From a virus: a stretch of 41,132 nt of DNA. Positions 3,327 through 31,069 of this stretch are shown here, piece after piece (position 1 is the stretch's first letter; each line of letters begins with the position of its first letter). The notes under the pieces are model-generated. The model ran no database searches, was not told the DNA's origin, and was given only the letters and a program-made list of their open reading frames with translations. The stretch spans positions 1 to 41,132 of IMG/VR virus record IMGVR_UViG_3300050821_004492; one strand, 5' to 3'. A program made the translations under genes and the position numbers.

Positions 3327-5097
3327 TCTTCTAACCAGTGTCGAGGTTGACACCAAAGAGCTGGGACGGACCAGGGTCGAACCTTGGCCGTCTCAGCGTC
3401 TTGTCATCGATGCGGTTGCCAAGGGACTGAGTGAAGGTGTTCACGAATTCGTCGTGCTCAAATGCCGACAAGTTGCCATCACGACGGTATGTTCGGTTGT
3501 TGAACTATTTTGGGCTCTGGCTAATCCTGGGGTGCAAGGTGCTATTATTGCGGACCGCACTGATAACCTTGAGCGCTTGCGTCGCATTTTTGCAAGTCTA
3601 CTCGAAACCCTCCCGCCCGAGTGGCGATCTCCCGAGCACCGACTAGTCCAGAATAATCGCACCGGTATGGCGTTCGCCAATCGATCAGTGATTGATCTGC
3701 TGGCGGCTGCTTCCAATCCGGATCTCGGCGCCTCGCGCGCGCTCAACATGATGCACGCGACCGAATGCGCACAGTGGAAATCGCTGGCTGGCGTGGAAAG
3801 TCTGAAGGCATCGCTGGCGCGGCAGAACCCGACCCGGCTTTACATCTGGGAAAGCATCGCGAACGGCTTCAACTGGTACTACAATCACGTCCAGCAAGCC
3901 AAGCAAGACCGCCACATGCGGTTTATCTTTATCGGCTTCTGGGCAAATCCAACCTACACCATTGCAAAATCCGATCCTGATTTCAAAATCTACTGGGACG
4001 GTGGCAAGCTGACCGAAGACGAAATCACCCGCGCCCGCTACGTCAAACAACAATACAATCACGTCATCAAACCGGAGCAAATCGCATGGTGGAGAAGGGA
4101 GGCGGAATTCCGCCACGAGGAATACATGTTGAGGCATTACCCCTGGCACGAGAGGGAATGCTTCATCGCCAGTGGCAGCGGGTTCTTCCCGGCACAACGG
4201 ACATTGGAAATATCCGAGCTGCTGACGCCATCAGGGCCGCCTTACAAAGGTTACAAGTACCTGTTCAACGAACAATTTCTGGAAAGCCGGATTGAGCCGA
4301 CGAATGACCGCGACGAAGCGATGCTCAAGGTTTGGGAGCCGCCTGAAGAAAATGGCATTTATTGCATTGGTGTTGACCCTTCCGGTGGTGGTGGGGGCGA
4401 TAGCGACGATCACGCTATTGAGGTCCTGCGCTGTTACGCTGACCGCGTTGTGCAAGTCGCGGAATTCCGCACCAACAAACCAATAACCTACCAAATTGCC
4501 TGGGTGCTGGCGCATCTTGCCGGCGCCTACCGCGATCACATCGCCAATCTGGAAGTGACCGGCGTAGGTGCCGCCGTGCTGCCCGAGGTCCGGAACCTGC
4601 GCATGCTGGCCGAACGCGGCATGATCCAGGGCGAGCCGGGATCGGAAAAGATCCTCAACATGATCGGAGCTGTGCGATGGTTTCTGTACAAGCGAGCAGA
4701 TACCTTGGGTGGAGCTGGAAACGTCATCGCGTGGAAAGCGAACGTAGACAACAAACATCAGACCTACAGCGAAGTCCGCGACAGCCTGATGCTGCGCCGG
4801 CTGGAACTCCGCTCCCCGGCCCTGGTGGCACAGATGCAAGCAGTGATCGAGGACGAGGGGTGGATTGGCGCCGGCCCCGACACCGGTGAAAACGACGATC
4901 TGGTGTCGGCGCTAGTTCTGGCGCATCATGCCTGGATCGAATGGCGCCGACCAATGCTAGTCGCCCGCAATCACACCTGGGATCGCGTCAAGGGCGAGCG
5001 GCCCCCGGCCAACGTCGGCACCATGCTTTCGTTTGCGTTCTCACAGCACTTTGCTGCCATCAACAGGAAAGCCAACGTTAGAAAAGAGAAATTCTAA
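3298..5097 (+). CDS. terL: terminase large subunit (ATPase-nuclease)
   Basis: DNA-packaging motor, cutting and translocating phage DNA into the prohead through the portal. ATPase signs: a Walker-A-like KCRQVAITT (residues 55-63) and a Walker-B-like [10 protein letters not shown] (151-160). RNase-H-fold nuclease signs: GVDPSGG (about 358-364), LEVTGVG (about 418-424) and the late acidic pair [15 protein letters not shown] (from about 532). Length 599 residues is normal for the family. GTG at 3298 is preferred because GGGGA lies just upstream; a TTG at 3286 is the in-frame alternative. It overlaps the preceding gene and shares TAATG with the next. Confidence 0.92.
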
Positions 5098-6248
5098 TGG
5101 CTAAACCAACTGGCTTAGTATCAACGACCCCCGAGCTGGCAACAATCCCTGCTGGTAACTCGCTTTCAAACTCTGTCGATTGCAGCGCGGGCAGGCCAGT
5201 ATTTCTTGGAACGCCAGAAAACTGGACACCAGCCGCATTCACGTTCGAAATCTCAATGGACGGAGTTAATTTTTATGAACTTGTTGATGCAAGCGGCAAT
5301 GTTAGGCATTTCAATTTTGCCCCTGGCGCAGGAATGCCATTCACCGCGACGTGGGCACAGTACATTGTTGCAGTCAAAATAAGATCGGGCTCCAAAGCTT
5401 TTCCTGTTGAACAAGACGCAGATGCTTCATTCAGATTGGAGCTGCAAGTCGCGGACAGCACGGGTGGTGGAACGCAAGGACCACCCGGACCAACAGGAGA
5501 GACGGGCCCTCCTGGCCCGGAAGGCCCGCCAGGGCCAGCGGGAGCGGACGGTGTTGACGGAGCAACAGGGCCAGCGGGCCCGGCTGGCTCTACCGGCGTT
5601 GCAGGACCAACCGGCCCCAAGGGAGACACGGGCGCTGCGGGCGCAACGGGACCAGCGGGAGCGCAGGGCACGCCAGGGCTACCGGGCACAGCAGGCGCAA
5701 CGGGTCCGGCAGGGCCGGCTGGCCCGAATGCGGTGTCAGTCAACACCGGCAACATCGCCAAGCTGGGAACCGACAGCCTCATTTTTGTGCCAAAGAACGT
5801 CATCGGCACCATCACCAACGACAACGCTCCGGCTGGCTGCGTCGGCGAGTTTATTTCGAAAACTGTGCTTGCAGCCAATGCTGTAGCAGCGGCAACCGGC
5901 GTGACCGTCAACGTCACCAGCATTTCGCTATCGCCCGGCGATTGGGACGTTCAAGGACAAATCTGGATTGCCCCAACCGGAACACGCGCCGCTACAAACG
6001 TCACCGGGATTGGTACCTGGGTCAGTGCAACATCCGCTCTCATGCCAACGGTTCCTGCCGGAAGTCTGAATTCACTTTTTGGCATCAATATCGCCCTGGT
6101 CGCGGCCAACCTACCCGTTCTCACAACGGGAAAGGTGCGCTTTTCGCTCGCGGCTACAACAACAATCTATCTTAGTGGCTTGGTGACTTATACCGGCGCA
6201 GGGCCAATTGGGCTTTACGGCTATATCGACGCACGGCGCGCTCGCTAG
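5097..6248 (+). CDS. collagen-like fibre/appendage protein
   Basis: A 383-residue protein in three parts: an N-terminal beta-rich domain (about 1-120), a collagen-like Gly-X-Y stretch (about 127-210, with [16 protein letters not shown]) and a C-terminal domain beginning after [11 protein letters not shown]. The C-terminal part, with [23 protein letters not shown] and the closing YIDARRAR, resembles the end of the protein at 39954-40487. Phage collagen repeats form trimeric rods, so a trimeric fibre on the capsid or tail is likely. Starts at the TAATG overlap with the terminase, unusual as the first gene after it. Confidence 0.8.
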
Positions 6249-14532: not shown

Positions 14533-15282
14533 ATGTTGGCCAATTACGTTAACGAGGTGCAAAACCTGCTCAACGACAATCAAGGGCAGTTTTTCACCAT
14601 TCCGACCCTGGGCAACTACATCAACCGCTCTCGCCGTCGCATCGCCGCCATATCCGGCTGCTTGCGCGTCATCCCGCCCGGCGTACAGACCATTCCCAAT
14701 CAGGAAGTCTATACGTTCCGGAGCTGGGACCCGCTGGTGCAGCTCATTATGCCGCAAGCGCAATCCGTTCTCGCCTGCCGCTCGCTCGCTCTCGGCATCG
14801 GCGGTCGCTGGCAAGTCACCGAAGACGAAAACGGCAATATCCTGAGTGGGAGCATCGTCGGCGGAAGTTGGAAACCACTCTGGCGGCGCCTGATCTGGAC
14901 GGATTTCCAAGCCCGCTTTCGCATCTATGGCGGCACCTTCATGGGCACCATCAGCGAACCCGGCTGGTGGGCGCAATACGGCGAGGGACCAACCGGATCG
15001 ATCTTCATGGCGCCGGTGCCAACGCAATCGCTGCCGATGGAAGTCGATCTGACCGTCATTCCACAGCCGCTACTGACTGACAACGACATCGACCCCATTC
15101 CCTACCCCTGGCGCGATGCCGTGAGCTATTGGGCGGCAACGCTCGCCTTGCTGCAACAGCAACGGCGCGAGGATGCGCTGGCCATGGCGCAGATGTTCGC
15201 GACCGAGCTGCCCCTGTGCGCGGCAGTGGTCTGTCCGCAAATGATCCAAACCGCTTACGGCGCGACGCTCAGATCAGCTTGA
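14533..15282 (+). CDS. head-tail adaptor protein (249 aa)
   Basis: The N-terminus MLANYVNEVQNLLNDNQGQF continues through PTLGNYINRSRRRIAAISGC, the helical start typical of podovirus adaptors such as P22 gp4 or T7 gp11 analogues, and a beta region (RIYGGTFMGTISEPGWWAQY) follows. It ends with helices (AVSYWAATLALLQQQ). Adaptors sit under the portal and connect it to the nozzle. The gene lies between the decoration protein and the nozzle-like gene. Family-level match by pattern only. Confidence 0.65.
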   Translation: MLANYVNEVQNLLNDNQGQFFTIPTLGNYINRSRRRIAAISGCLRVIPPGVQTIPNQEVYTFRSWDPLVQLIMPQAQSVLACRSLALGIGGRWQVTEDENGNILSGSIVGGSWKPLWRRLIWTDFQARFRIYGGTFMGTISEPGWWAQYGEGPTGSIFMAPVPTQSLPMEVDLTVIPQPLLTDNDIDPIPYPWRDAVSYWAATLALLQQQRREDALAMAQMFATELPLCAAVVCPQMIQTAYGATLRSA

Positions 15283-15286
15283 TGAC

Positions 15287-17005
15287 ATGCCTATCCAGAG
15301 TGCAAATCCACCCCAGCTACACACCTGGGAAAATTGGACGGCCGGGCTCAACCAGCAAGCCGGGCGCGGCGCGATCGGAGACGACGAACAGTGGTGGAAC
15401 GAGAACCTGTTCGCGATTGGGTCAGGGAATTTGCGATCCTGCTGGGGCCCCAGCCCCGCAATCTACACCGCGCCGGCCGGCATACGAATTTTGCGTATGT
15501 TCTTCGGCTTTATCGGCGATATTACACCGCAGAACGGTGCCCCGCCTCCCGGCGCTTATGGCTGGATGTTTTTAAGCGACGGAACCATCGATCAAGTCGA
15601 TCTCGACACCCATGACGTCGTGCATGTCGGCGGTTCCGGTCATCAGGTGTGGAACCCGATCGCCCCGCAATATTGGGCAAGCGCAAAAGTGTGGCGACCG
15701 CGCTTTATTGGCGCCGTCTCTGGTCAGGGCGGCGGCGTTTTGTTCGGCTCACCCGAGCCGGCCCTCGGTGGAACCGTTGGCGGGCTCTATGCCTGGGACG
15801 GCGCAACCCTGTCATCACCCGGCGATCCCGCTCCGGATTGGCTGACCGATGCGCTGGAGGTTTCCCCTGGCGTACCGTTCACCATGCCAATCGGCTTGCC
15901 GGGCATCTACGCCATGGAGGTCTACAATTCTCGGCTGTTCGTCGCCGGCAAGGATGTGATTTCGTTTTCGGCACCGTCCAACGGCGCCGACTTTTCCACA
16001 ACGGACGGCGGCGGCTCATTCGGCTATTTCGGCGACAAGCTGACCTACAGCTACATGGATCTGGCAGCGAGCGCCGGCTATCTGTTCGTTTACGGCGACA
16101 GCTCGATTGATATGATCAACCAAGTTCAGCTAATAGGGTCCGGCACTCCGGAAGCTCCATTCACCACCAATCTTTCCTACACCAATGTCGATCCACAAGT
16201 CGGGCAACGGTTCCCGCGTCCCGTTGGCCGCATTGGCCGCTACATGCAAATGTTCAACGGCGCCGGCATTTTTGAGCTGCGCGGCGGTGAGACACGCGAG
16301 ATCGGTCAGAAGACCACCAACATCTTCGACACGCTCGTCATTCCAAAAACCGCTGCTGATGCCACTGCGACACCGCCCCTGTATTACCCGACCATGGCGC
16401 CGGCGACCATGTTCGGGTTCCGCGTTCTGCTGTGTAATGGGCGCTTTACCGACATCTACGGACAGACCCGCAATCTTCTGCTGATGTGGCATCCGCGCCA
16501 GGGCGCTGAATTCTGGTCAATCGCCACACAAGGGGTGCAGCTCACCCACATTGGCTCGTATGAGCAGGACAGCGTCATCAGGCCCTACGGAACCGATAGC
16601 ACCAACCTGTTTCAGCTCTTTGCCCAGCCCGATCCCGCCATCCTCAAGATCCTGTCCACCAAATTCATTCGTGGCCAGGGGCTGGATCAACTCACCGTCA
16701 AGAACTGGAAGCGCGTGTTTCTGGATTTTGCCGACAATGACGGTCGCGGGGTCAATTTCATCGGCGGTTTTTCCACACGCGGCGGCGGCATCCCCGGCGG
16801 CACACAGGAAGTCTCATTCAACATTGCGACGGCGCCGGTATTGGGAACCGGCGTGAGCAACACCCCACGTCCGACATCGTCAGAGCCCTACCCCATTCAG
16901 GCTTCCGGCATTTCCGGCGCCATCGATATGCAATCACTATCCCCCGATTTCACCATCGAGCGCCTTCACGTCATGCTTGAAAGCCGCGTCTTGTGGGGGG
17001 CGTGA
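15287..17005 (+). CDS. tail nozzle/stabilisation-like protein (572 aa)
   Basis: Opens with HTWENWTAGLNQQAGRGAIG and then shows many Gly-rich beta stretches spaced like propeller blades (GGLYAWDGATL, SRLFVAGKDVISFSAPSNGADF, GYLFVYGDSSIDMI, GIFELRGGETREIG). This resembles the P22 gp10 and podovirus nozzle type, a beta-propeller-bearing ring closing the tail tube. It follows the adaptor, which fits. It is the last large gene before the micro-ORF array. Confidence 0.65.
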   Translation: MPIQSANPPQLHTWENWTAGLNQQAGRGAIGDDEQWWNENLFAIGSGNLRSCWGPSPAIYTAPAGIRILRMFFGFIGDITPQNGAPPPGAYGWMFLSDGTIDQVDLDTHDVVHVGGSGHQVWNPIAPQYWASAKVWRPRFIGAVSGQGGGVLFGSPEPALGGTVGGLYAWDGATLSSPGDPAPDWLTDALEVSPGVPFTMPIGLPGIYAMEVYNSRLFVAGKDVISFSAPSNGADFSTTDGGGSFGYFGDKLTYSYMDLAASAGYLFVYGDSSIDMINQVQLIGSGTPEAPFTTNLSYTNVDPQVGQRFPRPVGRIGRYMQMFNGAGIFELRGGETREIGQKTTNIFDTLVIPKTAADATATPPLYYPTMAPATMFGFRVLLCNGRFTDIYGQTRNLLLMWHPRQGAEFWSIATQGVQLTHIGSYEQDSVIRPYGTDSTNLFQLFAQPDPAILKILSTKFIRGQGLDQLTVKNWKRVFLDFADNDGRGVNFIGGFSTRGGGIPGGTQEVSFNIATAPVLGTGVSNTPRPTSSEPYPIQASGISGAIDMQSLSPDFTIERLHVMLESRVLWGA

Positions 17006-17068: not shown

Positions 17069-17110
17069 ATGGCACGTAGACGCCGCCGTCACCGCCGAGG
17101 TCGCCGATAA
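17069..17110 (+). CDS. arginine-rich micropeptide 1 (13 aa)
   Basis: MARRRRRHRRGRR followed by TAA: nine of 13 residues are arginine. AGGGAAAAGAGG lies upstream with the GAGG 5 bases from ATG, a good ribosome-binding site. The TAA overlaps the ATG of the next micro-ORF by one base (TAATG). The 63-base gap to the preceding tail gene holds no other feature. Composition is that of a protamine or polyarginine peptide, which would bind DNA or RNA by charge. Below the usual gene-calling size, so translation is unproven. Confidence 0.55.
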   Translation: MARRRRRHRRGRR

Positions 17111-17154
17111 TGGCACGCCGTCGCCGAAGGGGTCGCAGAGGTCGCCGGAGGTAG
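17110..17154 (+). CDS. arginine-rich micropeptide 2 (14 aa)
   Basis: MARRRRRGRRGRRR, ten arginines out of 14, beginning at the last A of the previous TAA. It shares its first seven residues with micropeptide 1, pointing to tandem duplication. Its final CGG AGG codons supply the ribosome-binding site for the next frame. It ends in TAG and is in the same frame as the two ORFs that follow. Confidence 0.55.
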   Translation: MARRRRRGRRGRRR

Positions 17155-17160
17155 GCGCCC

Positions 17161-17247
17161 ATGCCCCGCAAGAGACGCTCGAAGCCTCTGAAAATGACGC
17201 GGAGAGCCAAGCGCATTCGTGCGCGTAAGTCCAAGCGGCACGGTTAG
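17161..17247 (+). CDS. basic micropeptide 3 (28 aa)
   Basis: Starts MPRKRRSKPLKMTRRAKRIR and ends KSKRHG: nine Arg and six Lys in 28 residues and no acidic residue. GGAGG at 17147-17151 is 9 bases upstream. Its composition recalls the microvirus J and gokushovirus VP8 DNA-binding proteins, a resemblance of type only. The TAG stop is immediately followed by the ATG of the next ORF. Confidence 0.55.
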   Translation: MPRKRRSKPLKMTRRAKRIRARKSKRHG

Positions 17248-17367
17248 ATGCCCAAATATGGCCTGCGCAATACGCAGAATTTGCGCCGGCAACTCAAACC
17301 CAAAAGCTGGCGGATGCCCAAGTGGCGTCCGCGCTTGTTCAGCTATCGCAAAGGCAGGAGGATGTAG
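17248..17367 (+). CDS. basic micropeptide 4 (39 aa)
   Basis: ATG directly abuts the previous TAG, in the same frame. The product has nine Arg, five Lys and no acidic residue, plus aromatic residues (MPKYGLRNTQ, KSWRMPKWRPRLFSYRKGRR). Aromatic and basic side chains together suit nucleic-acid binding. Its end encodes AGGAGG, the ribosome-binding site for the next ORF, and its TAG overlaps that ORF's GTG by one base. Confidence 0.6.
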   Translation: MPKYGLRNTQNLRRQLKPKSWRMPKWRPRLFSYRKGRRM

Positions 17368-17543
17368 TGGCAAAAGGTGCTGACCTTGGGCCGCGCTCTC
17401 GTGTCGATCCCGCTGGTCGCTTTCCCACCCGCACCCCACGAACCGGGCACAACACGCCTGGGTATCGTGCCCGTGAAACCCGCGCCTGTAGTCCGCACGG
17501 TGGCGGTCAACGCTATCGGCGGTCACGTCGCGGCGGGAGGTAA
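17367..17543 (+). CDS. basic small protein 5 (58 aa)
   Basis: GTG start at 17367 overlaps the preceding TAG (TAGTG) and lies 5 bases after AGGAGG. The protein is Arg, Gly, Pro and Thr-rich (RFPTRTPRTGHNTPGYRARET) and ends QRYRRSRRGGR, a strongly basic tail. Low sequence complexity suggests an unstructured chain. A competing frame in the same DNA is noted separately. Confidence 0.6.
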   Translation: MAKGADLGPRSRVDPAGRFPTRTPRTGHNTPGYRARETRACSPHGGGQRYRRSRRGGR

Positions 17544-17545
17544 CA

Positions 17546-17587
17546 ATGGCCCGTAGAGGTCGGCGCCGTTTATCGCGCAGGCACTGA
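17546..17587 (+). CDS. arginine-rich micropeptide 6 (13 aa)
   Basis: MARRGRRRLSRRH: seven arginines in 13. GGGAGG ends 5 bases upstream of ATG. It opens with MARR like micropeptides 1 and 2, a third copy of the same design placed about 440 bases downstream. The TGA is followed one base later by the next ATG. Confidence 0.55.
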   Translation: MARRGRRRLSRRH

Positions 17588-17588
17588 A

Positions 17589-17762
17589 ATGGCTCGCTCA
17601 CGCAAACCGCCGGGCCGCACTGGTCCGGTTTCCAGATTGCCATGGGCTAACGGAGCTTGGCCGGGTGACTGGAGCCGTACCCGGTTAGCCGGTAAGCGCT
17701 CCGGGGCGCGGTCCCCGCGTCCTGGGGCGCGAACTGGTCCGGTCCGCCGGTCAGCTCGGTGA
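17589..17762 (+). CDS. basic small protein 7 (57 aa)
   Basis: ATG at 17589 lies just after the previous TGA; an AGG in the preceding codons is the only weak site, so coupling probably drives its translation. The product has 13 Arg and two Lys with one acidic residue (MARSRKPPGRTGPVSRLPWA, ending TGPVRRSAR). TGPV occurs twice, suggesting a short internal repeat. The TGA overlaps the nuclease GTG by GTGA. Confidence 0.6.
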   Translation: MARSRKPPGRTGPVSRLPWANGAWPGDWSRTRLAGKRSGARSPRPGARTGPVRRSAR

Positions 17763-18130
17763 AAAGCAGGGTCACCGAAGCACAGCTTCACAAAGCTGTC
17801 GCTGATCTGCTCGATTGGATGCTGTTGCCACCCGCGTTATGGACGACGTTCCCGTCCGGGTGGGGGAAACTCGGCAAAGCTACGGCCGGCCGCCTCCACG
17901 GCTCCGGGCTTAAAGCCGGGTTTCCCGATATTCTGATCTTCTTCAATGGCCATTGTGTCGGGGTTGAGCTGAAAACCGAGACTGGCTTGGTTTCCAAAGC
18001 CCAGCACCTGATGTTCATGCGATTGTACGAAGCCGGCATACGGGTCTACATTTGCCGCAACACCGATGACGTGATTGGGGTTTTAGAGCAGGAAAGCCTC
18101 CCGCATCGGAAAATGAAGGTGGCAGCATGA
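17759..18130 (+). CDS. VRR-NUC domain nuclease (123 aa)
   Basis: A stand-alone VRR-NUC nuclease of the PD-(D/E)xK superfamily. Visible motifs: KAGFPDILIF (residues 52-61) with the catalytic Asp, VELK (69-72) with Glu and Lys, and SKAQ (79-82) with the conserved Gln. Family members cut branched or flapped DNA and are typical of replication modules. Here it is coupled by GTGA to the basic micro-ORFs inside the virion operon. A role in packaging, junction removal or ejected DNA is possible but not shown. It overlaps the next gene by ATGA. Confidence 0.85.
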   Translation: MKSRVTEAQLHKAVADLLDWMLLPPALWTTFPSGWGKLGKATAGRLHGSGLKAGFPDILIFFNGHCVGVELKTETGLVSKAQHLMFMRLYEAGIRVYICRNTDDVIGVLEQESLPHRKMKVAA

Positions 18131-18450
18131 CCCGAGAAACACAGAAGCCATGGCCCAGGACACGGGACGACGGGACGGAGCCGCGCTCACCGACCGCGTT
18201 TTTCGCTCACCCGGATGGAATGCTGAAATCCGATCGCTCACTCGCCGGGCCTTTGCGTATGGGCACCGCCCCCGGCGCCGGACCCACCGGCGCGCTGCGC
18301 GGCGGCACTAGCTCCGACTTCGGCATGGATCGCGTAACCCCGCGCCGGATTGACATCATCGGCACGCCGCTGGATCGGCAGGGCGCGACGGAAGCTTCCC
18401 CCCTTGTTTCACGTGAGCTGAGAGGCAGCAATCGTCGCAAGGAGGAGTAG
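18127..18450 (+). CDS. hypothetical protein, basic and Pro/Gly-rich (107 aa)
   Basis: ATGA overlap with the nuclease. The sequence is low in hydrophobic residues (KPWPRTRDDGTEPRSPTAFF, GPTGALRGGTSSDFGMDRVT) and ends SRELRGSNRRKEE, probably largely unfolded. The next gene's ATG follows its TAG without a gap. No family recognised; virion or assembly role by position. Confidence 0.65.
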   Translation: MTRETQKPWPRTRDDGTEPRSPTAFFAHPDGMLKSDRSLAGPLRMGTAPGAGPTGALRGGTSSDFGMDRVTPRRIDIIGTPLDRQGATEASPLVSRELRGSNRRKEE

Positions 18451-29983: not shown

Positions 29984-31069
29984 ATGAAGATCGTCATCAG
30001 CAGCGGCCACGGCAAATACATTCGCGGCGCCTCCTGCCCAGCACCGGGATTGGACGAAGTTGACGAAGCTCGCAAAGTGGTTGACCGCGTTGCCGAGCTA
30101 TGGCGCGAAGCGGGAGTTGGGGTCGATGTGTTTCACGACAACGTCTCAACCTCGCAGAATGCCAACCTCAACGCCATCGTCAACTATCACAACAGCAAGT
30201 CGCGCGACTTCGATGTGAGCGTTCACTTCAACGCCTACAACAAAACCAACAACCCGATGGGCTGTGAAGTGTTGTATGTCACGCAACAGAAGATCGCCGC
30301 CGATACATCGTTGGCGATCGCCCAGACCGGCGCGTTCATCAATCGTGGCGCCAAGAAGCGCACCGATCTGTTTTTCCTGAACTCGACGGAAATGCCGGCG
30401 GTGTTGTTGGAGGTTTGTTTTGTTGACAGCATGGCCGATGCCGAGCTGTACCGACAACACTTTGACAGTATCTGCACCCGCATCGCCGAAGTGATTGGCA
30501 AAGTGTCGATAGACGAGGGCGCCCCCGAGCAGCCCCCGCCTATCGAACCCCCACCTGACACCGAAACAGCTCGGGTCGAAATCAACATCAAGGCGACCGG
30601 ACCAGTCATCGTCACCATCAATGGTGAAGATTTTATGGTCAACACGGCGGGGCCGGAGCAACCATCAACTCCGGCATTCCCGGCTAATCAACAAGACATT
30701 ACCTGCACGGTATTCGGCGGCAAGGCCGATCCAAACACCTCGGCTTATCCACCTTATGACACCATCACCGACAAAGAGTTGAGCTGCGCGCTGCCGTTCA
30801 AATTCAAGGACCCCAGGCCCGAGGTGCTGGTCAACTTGGCCGGCAGCGAAGTCAGCGTAGTTTGTCGCATCCGCGACGTAGGACCCTGGAACACTCATGA
30901 TCCGTACTGGACGACCGGCACGCGGCCGCAAGCCGAAAGCGGCACCGACATGTCCGGCCGACCCACCAACGGCGCCGGCATAGACCTCACGCCGGCTGCG
31001 GCCAAAGCAATTGGCCTCGAAGGCAAGGGCAAGGTTAACTGGCGATTTGTCGATGACGCTGTTGCCTGA
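29984..31069 (+). CDS. endolysin: N-acetylmuramoyl-L-alanine amidase plus DPBB domain (361 aa)
   Basis: AGGAGG upstream sets the start. Residues 1-175 form an Amidase_3-type domain: MKIVISSGHGK with zinc ligand His9, DEARKV with Glu28, VSVHFNAY with His81 and LLEVCF with catalytic Glu143. A Pro-rich linker (about 178-230) leads to a C-terminal domain (about 240-361) resembling RlpA-like double-psi barrels: TVFGGKADPNTSAYPP, VVCRIRDVGPWNTHDPYW, GAGIDLTPAAAKAIG. It cuts peptidoglycan at lysis; the second domain may cut or bind glycan. Release would need a holin. Confidence 0.82.
   Translation: MKIVISSGHGKYIRGASCPAPGLDEVDEARKVVDRVAELWREAGVGVDVFHDNVSTSQNANLNAIVNYHNSKSRDFDVSVHFNAYNKTNNPMGCEVLYVTQQKIAADTSLAIAQTGAFINRGAKKRTDLFFLNSTEMPAVLLEVCFVDSMADAELYRQHFDSICTRIAEVIGKVSIDEGAPEQPPPIEPPPDTETARVEINIKATGPVIVTINGEDFMVNTAGPEQPSTPAFPANQQDITCTVFGGKADPNTSAYPPYDTITDKELSCALPFKFKDPRPEVLVNLAGSEVSVVCRIRDVGPWNTHDPYWTTGTRPQAESGTDMSGRPTNGAGIDLTPAAAKAIGLEGKGKVNWRFVDDAVA

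Follow-up and report, generated by a model that had tools for sequence, protein, structure and literature searches.

Background

Small basic peptides that take part in DNA packaging are already known, both in phages with ssDNA genomes and in dsDNA viruses of eukaryotes. Microviruses (phiX174 type) are small ssDNA phages with a single J gene, and their J proteins are very short peptides, rich in Arg and Lys, that bind the genome during packaging. Members of the Baculoviridae, Adenoviridae and Asfarviridae encode small Arg-rich proteins that resemble protamines and are putative condensers of DNA (PMC3281028). For tailed phages, in contrast, the prevailing view is that packaging needs no proteins of this kind. 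The same paper, on chlorella viruses, states that there is no evidence of basic proteins contributing much to the neutralization of phage dsDNA genomes (PMC3281028).

Here we describe a tandem array of seven micro-ORFs for Arg-dominated peptides in a virus record of 41,132 bases without end repeats (the window, i.e., the entire stretch of DNA that was analyzed). The window encodes a terminase (TerL, phrog_2), a head protein (phrog_9953), an SU10-type adaptor at 14533-15282 (PF24175 SU10_adaptor, above its cut-off), and a portal with a weak SU10-type match (PF23899) that falls below the cut-off, which together point to a short-tailed phage. The phage thus shares its adaptor type with Kuravirus SU10, the portal likeness being sub-threshold, and the SU10 virion paper proved, in a text search, to mention neither arginine nor condensation nor small proteins (PMC9509320). 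The phages with the array are uncultured and podovirus-like, have genomes of about 42 kb and form one clade. Among annotated records, the closest are two phages from spring-water metagenomes, with portal and capsid identities of 32-37%. No such array follows the tail gene of record MW202753, and bacterial genome contigs scanned with one array family (family e) and the tail protein gave no match. The window also carries a gene for a collagen-like (Gly-X-Y) tail fibre, at 5097-6248, which directly overlaps the end of the terminase gene.

The sequence-only reading of the window had likened the peptides to protamines and microvirus J proteins. The likeness holds as a description, since they are short, strongly basic and dominated by Arg, and need not imply homology. 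Microviruses have ssDNA and neither terminase nor portal, whereas the window encodes a head protein of tailed-phage type along with its terminase and SU10-type adaptor; descent of its peptides from J proteins is therefore improbable. Furthermore, 4-8 different peptides are encoded here in tandem, beside a nuclease, in a tailed dsDNA phage. The core proteins of eukaryotic dsDNA viruses are likewise small and Arg-rich, but those viruses are unrelated, and the array comprises several coupled micro-genes known from sequence alone. What appears new is the occurrence of basic, putatively packaging-type peptides in an unexpected type of virus and in a tandem format for which we found no described counterpart in the open-licence literature, whose silence is weak evidence.

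A tandem array of basic micro-ORFs

The array occupies positions 17069-17762 on the plus strand, which is also the strand of the structural genes. It is headed by ORF1 (17069..17110; 13 aa, MARRRRRHRRGRR), a poly-Arg peptide of family a preceded by the Shine-Dalgarno (SD) sequence GAGGA, and by a second copy of that family, ORF2 (17110..17154; 14 aa, MARRRRRGRRGRRR). ORF3 (17161..17247; 28 aa) belongs to family c (LKMTRRAKRIRARK), and ORF4 (17248..17367; 39 aa), which abuts the ORF3 stop, to family d (WRxPxWRPRLxSYRKGRR). These are followed by ORF5 (17367..17543; 58 aa), a member of family e with a GTG start (GxxLGPRSRVDPAG), by ORF6 (17546..17587; 13 aa, MARRGRRRLSRRH) of family f, and by ORF7 (17589..17762; 57 aa) of family g (GPVxRxPW...AWPSDW...SPRPGARTGPVR). 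The stop of ORF1 overlaps the start of ORF2 in TAATG, six bases separate ORF2 from ORF3, ORF3 and ORF4 are in direct TAG-ATG contact, and the ORF4 stop and ORF5 start share one base in TAGTG. Gaps of two bases and one base precede ORF6 and ORF7, respectively, and ORF7 overlaps the nuclease gene in GTGA at 17759. The seven lengths and all of these junctions, with gaps of no more than 6 bases, had been proposed from the sequence and proved correct base for base. Of the five clear SD sites proposed with them, those of ORFs 1, 3, 5 and 6 are good (AGGAGG for ORF5, supplied by the two C-terminal Arg codons of ORF4, and GGGAGG for ORF6); that of ORF2 is weaker (GAGG), and ORF4 and ORF7 are without a convincing one. 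No promoter- or terminator-like site was found on the array strand between the tail gene and the nuclease.

The 222 codons of the array include 71 for Arg and 14 for Lys (32% Arg), giving a net charge of +81; the single peptides, of 13-58 aa, each carry +7 to +15. Such small cationic products could conceivably be membrane-active lysis peptides similar to disruptins, which are small and cationic as well. We consider this very improbable. The poly-Arg members are almost without hydrophobic residues and hence cannot be amphipathic, and the gene for an amidase-type endolysin lies 12 kb off, at 29984-31069. Membership in the disruptin type was rejected, as the array at 17069-17762 is not linked to this lysis gene.

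Coding status and purifying selection

With a G+C content of 59%, and with long antisense and alternative ORFs present in the array region, the micro-ORFs might have arisen as a by-product of G+C richness, or the real gene might lie in another frame. The longest tail-to-head chain of basic micro-ORFs in the window has seven members on the array strand and two on the opposite strand. Chains never exceeded three members, whether the window was shuffled (100 first-order Markov shuffles) or the 800-bp array itself (500 shuffles). A run of seven linked basic ORFs is consequently far beyond chance. Five plus-strand micro-ORFs in the window are preceded by an SD site and have a net charge per residue of 0.22 or more, and four of the five lie inside the array.

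Comparison with related phages was more direct. With the counts from pairs of up to eight relatives pooled, in-frame pN/pS was 0.34 for family c (ORF3), 0.38 for d (ORF4), 0.27 for e (ORF5) and 0.30 for g (ORF7), against 1.0 to 2.3 in the other two plus-strand frames, where stop codons are present. One antisense frame also had low values (0.33-0.62), which is expected because antisense third positions face sense third positions, and it contains stops in relatives for d, e and g. It is close to certain that the longer ORFs (3, 4, 5 and 7) encode proteins under purifying selection. For these four, the idea of a by-product or of another real frame is refuted, the other plus-strand frames and the antisense ORF being ruled out by their pN/pS and stops, and for the array as a whole it is extremely improbable. 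ORFs 1, 2 and 6, which are too short for pN/pS, are probably coding to judge from their recurrence, SD sites and position. A single long frameshifted protein was also ruled out, because relatives conserve the starts and stops as well as the one-base overlaps that join families; the d/e overlap is exact in 43 of 58 loci. Another conserved frame, with the proposed ones broken, would have spoken against the original interpretation; the comparison came out for the proposed ORFs and bore out their description as genuine, conserved and coupled small proteins.

Conservation of the array and its families

Nine loci were reached through the downstream nuclease, and all frames of their array region were examined; the order of the array is kept in the close relatives among them. 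Alignments of ORF4, ORF7 and ORF5 led to 35, 43 and 65 loci, respectively. Overall, 4-8 basic micro-ORFs occur in a row at 63 distinct loci, the window included, in chains chosen by a score favoring basic ORFs with SD sites. Their peptides are dominated by Arg (32%, with 5% Lys, over 13,473 residues), and the summed charge of an array has a median of +70 (range +45 to +108).

The signature of family e (MARGVxLGPRSRVDPAG) was found in 63/63 loci, this being the family used for selection, that of g (GPVxRxPWxDxAWPSDW...SPRPGARTGPVR) in 59, that of d in 58 and that of c (LKxTRRARRIRAR) in 55. Two further families are less common, b (VPASRRAARARRR) with 15 of the 63 loci and n (AARRNLRKAR) with 11. 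Counterparts of ORF6 (family f, MARRGRR) were identified in L089, L092, L093 and L098-L100, and in some relatives family f is longer and has an RGG-like tail. The poly-Arg family a heads the array in most relatives, with its second copy present in L100 and absent in L098. Duplication had been called likely on the grounds that three ORFs begin with MARR. This was not established: MAR is the usual start in such arrays (184 micro-ORFs at 63 loci), which makes a shared start poor evidence, and near-likeness is limited to ORF1 and ORF2, beyond which nothing was found for duplication as the origin of the array.

Since family e had served to select loci, relatives were also collected with the upstream tail protein alone. 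The best 80 of 107 relatives, all IMG/VR contigs of one clade, were taken, and 72 of the 80 hold at least 700 bp beyond the tail gene. All 72 of these contigs have at least two basic SD-preceded micro-ORFs after the tail gene (median 5), with a density, among the best 80 of 107, of 3.7/kb after the tail gene versus 0.15/kb inside it on the same strand. In the distant relatives L214, L219, L223 and L231 the sequence signatures fade, and the array is present and still basic.

Many small phage proteins target the host (PMC11323111), and the number and kind of array peptides differ between phages, as might be expected of peptides that bind the nucleoid, ribosomes or RNA polymerase, or that counter a defence system. 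However, the array sits in the structural block rather than in an early region, and it keeps one place throughout the clade. A host-directed role consequently appears improbable.

Searches for described homologues gave no match, whether by nucleotide sequence against 50,697 phage records or with the array families tested against Pfam and PHROGs. When the tail protein and ORFs 4, 5 and 7 (family consensus sequences for ORF5 and ORF7) were compared with phage records by tblastn, there were likewise no hits, or hits with E >1. A PDB profile search with ORF7 found no match, and an AlphaFold2 model of this family, the one modeled, had no confident fold (mean pLDDT 59.9, pTM 0.22). Families b and c recovered few contigs in viral scans, the peptides being too short for E-values, and a strict poly-Arg start pattern recovered four contigs, none of which has such an array in the 2 kb or so surrounding its match. 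The array shows that phage genes of this very small size (11-60 aa, tandem, of low complexity) can be conserved across an entire clade and yet be missing from the Pfam and PHROG libraries searched.

Replacement of the neighboring nuclease

The array has fixed neighbors. Upstream, at 15287..17005 on the plus strand, lies the gene for a tail hub- or nozzle-like protein of 572 aa, a homologue of which ends just ahead of the array in 62/62 related loci. The putative tail role is suggested by its position after the SU10-type adaptor; the protein had no match in PHROG, Pfam or PDB profile searches, and its predicted structure had a pLDDT of 34.5. Downstream, the plus-strand gene at 17759..18130, with its GTG start, encodes the VRR-NUC nuclease already recognized in the sequence-only reading. 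The assignment was confirmed by PF08774 VRR_NUC (24.3 bits, curated cut-off 23.8), and the protein matches phrog_5702, Holliday junction resolvase (4.3e-10). It is followed on the same strand by a conserved small protein of 107 aa and unassigned function (18127..18450).

Among the contigs, 66 extend at least 1.8 kb past the tail gene, and in these the position after the array is always occupied by a nuclease (VRR-NUC in 34, RuvC-like in 19 and PDDEXK_15 in 13), and a homologue of 18127-18450 follows it in all 66. The PHROG matches of all three unrelated types are annotated as Holliday junction resolvase, the known phage enzymes to which this slot corresponds. On a maximum-likelihood tree of tail proteins (70 rows), four changes are required to explain nuclease type; for the VRR and PDDEXK labels, at least two changes are forced by well-supported branches. 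As judged from these sequences, the slot is a clear case of non-homologous gene replacement in which the array and its place were retained. No fixed pairing of a resolvase with a basic micro-ORF array was found described in the open-licence literature. Besides the window, the phages that show this variation of the slot after the array include L113, L116, L119 and L125.

That nucleases with one annotated activity replaced each other beside a constant array is the best, if indirect, indication from gene order that the array acts in the same process. We infer that both serve the maturation of replicated DNA for packaging. This could take place in the infected cell only, with peptides that are never packaged and that coat, anneal or compact replicating or concatemeric DNA, or assist resolvase and terminase. 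The invariable partner is indeed a resolvase-type nuclease and not a head gene, and in the window the nuclease start overlaps the last stop of the array. However, several different peptides of very high charge seem to exceed what a nuclease cofactor would need, and a specific peptide-nuclease contact is unlikely given that three unrelated nucleases accompany the same kind of array. A purely intracellular role is, in our estimation, rather unlikely.

A putative DNA-maturation cassette

The reading that we favor, with a probability of roughly one half, is that of a late DNA-maturation cassette whose protamine-like peptides bind, condense or tether DNA during packaging and are most likely kept in the head. 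The cassette would consist of individually translated, Arg-dominated small proteins expressed within the late structural gene block. Translational coupling through one-base overlaps and SD sites inside preceding ORFs should keep their production in step; this effect and the late timing are inferred from gene arrangement. The resolvase-type nuclease would remove branches from replicated DNA, and the peptides would bind the phage's own DNA electrostatically during maturation and packaging, partly neutralizing, condensing or tethering it. They would most likely remain with the DNA in the head, in the manner of protamines or J proteins.

The dominance of Arg, the lack of acidic balance and the absence of a confident fold in ORF7 lead one to expect nucleic-acid binding, and the location in the structural block next to a resolvase makes DNA the likelier target. 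Binding of DNA is therefore likely on compositional grounds, and a DNA-related role is strengthened by the fixed place of the array between the tail gene and a resolvase-type nuclease. Residence in the virion with the genome is predicted. With 82,264 phosphates in the genome and +81 per set of peptides, about 100 sets would offset 10% of the charge, which makes such residence possible. The conserved Trp, Pro and Gly residues of families d and g suggest a role more specific than charge neutralization, and these two families may attach DNA to a virion protein.

The statement on tailed-phage DNA in PMC3281028 counts against condensing peptides. If the favored reading is true, a selected, clade-wide array beside a resolvase would be a direct and testable exception to it. 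That this clade of dsDNA tailed phages condenses or charge-balances its genome with 4-8 coupled protamine-like peptides and an interchangeable branch-resolving nuclease, as an undescribed packaging cassette, is a proposal that we advance tentatively.

Variants of the array

The place of family b (VPASRRAARARRR) varies, as though it moved between slots: some phages have it within the array, others past the nuclease. Measured from the start of family e, it is found at +642..+728 in L119, +821..+910 in L105 and +839..+916 in L120. The basic micro-ORF with the AARRNLRKAR motif occurs past the main array, some 0.65-1.0 kb downstream of where family e starts, in its 11/63 loci, which include L104, L105, L108, L114, L125, L127 and L137. 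An HNH-endonuclease-like insert, recognized by eye, splits the array between families d and e in L094 (and also in L006).

Some of the poly-Arg peptides that head the array have a conserved acidic/aromatic leader (MGPNTHWLDFTEDRRGRRRGRRGRRR; MEQHILEANRRRRRGRRVRR), as in L113, L115, L116, L124, L139, L147 and others, a pattern that would fit a head for binding joined to a basic tail. Finally, two unrelated contigs, L242 (at about 3959) and L244 (at about 635), encode a single basic protein rather than an array, of the type MARRRRRR...GGKRALRKxMKxCAxxHKVTSxxFWACVRxGR.
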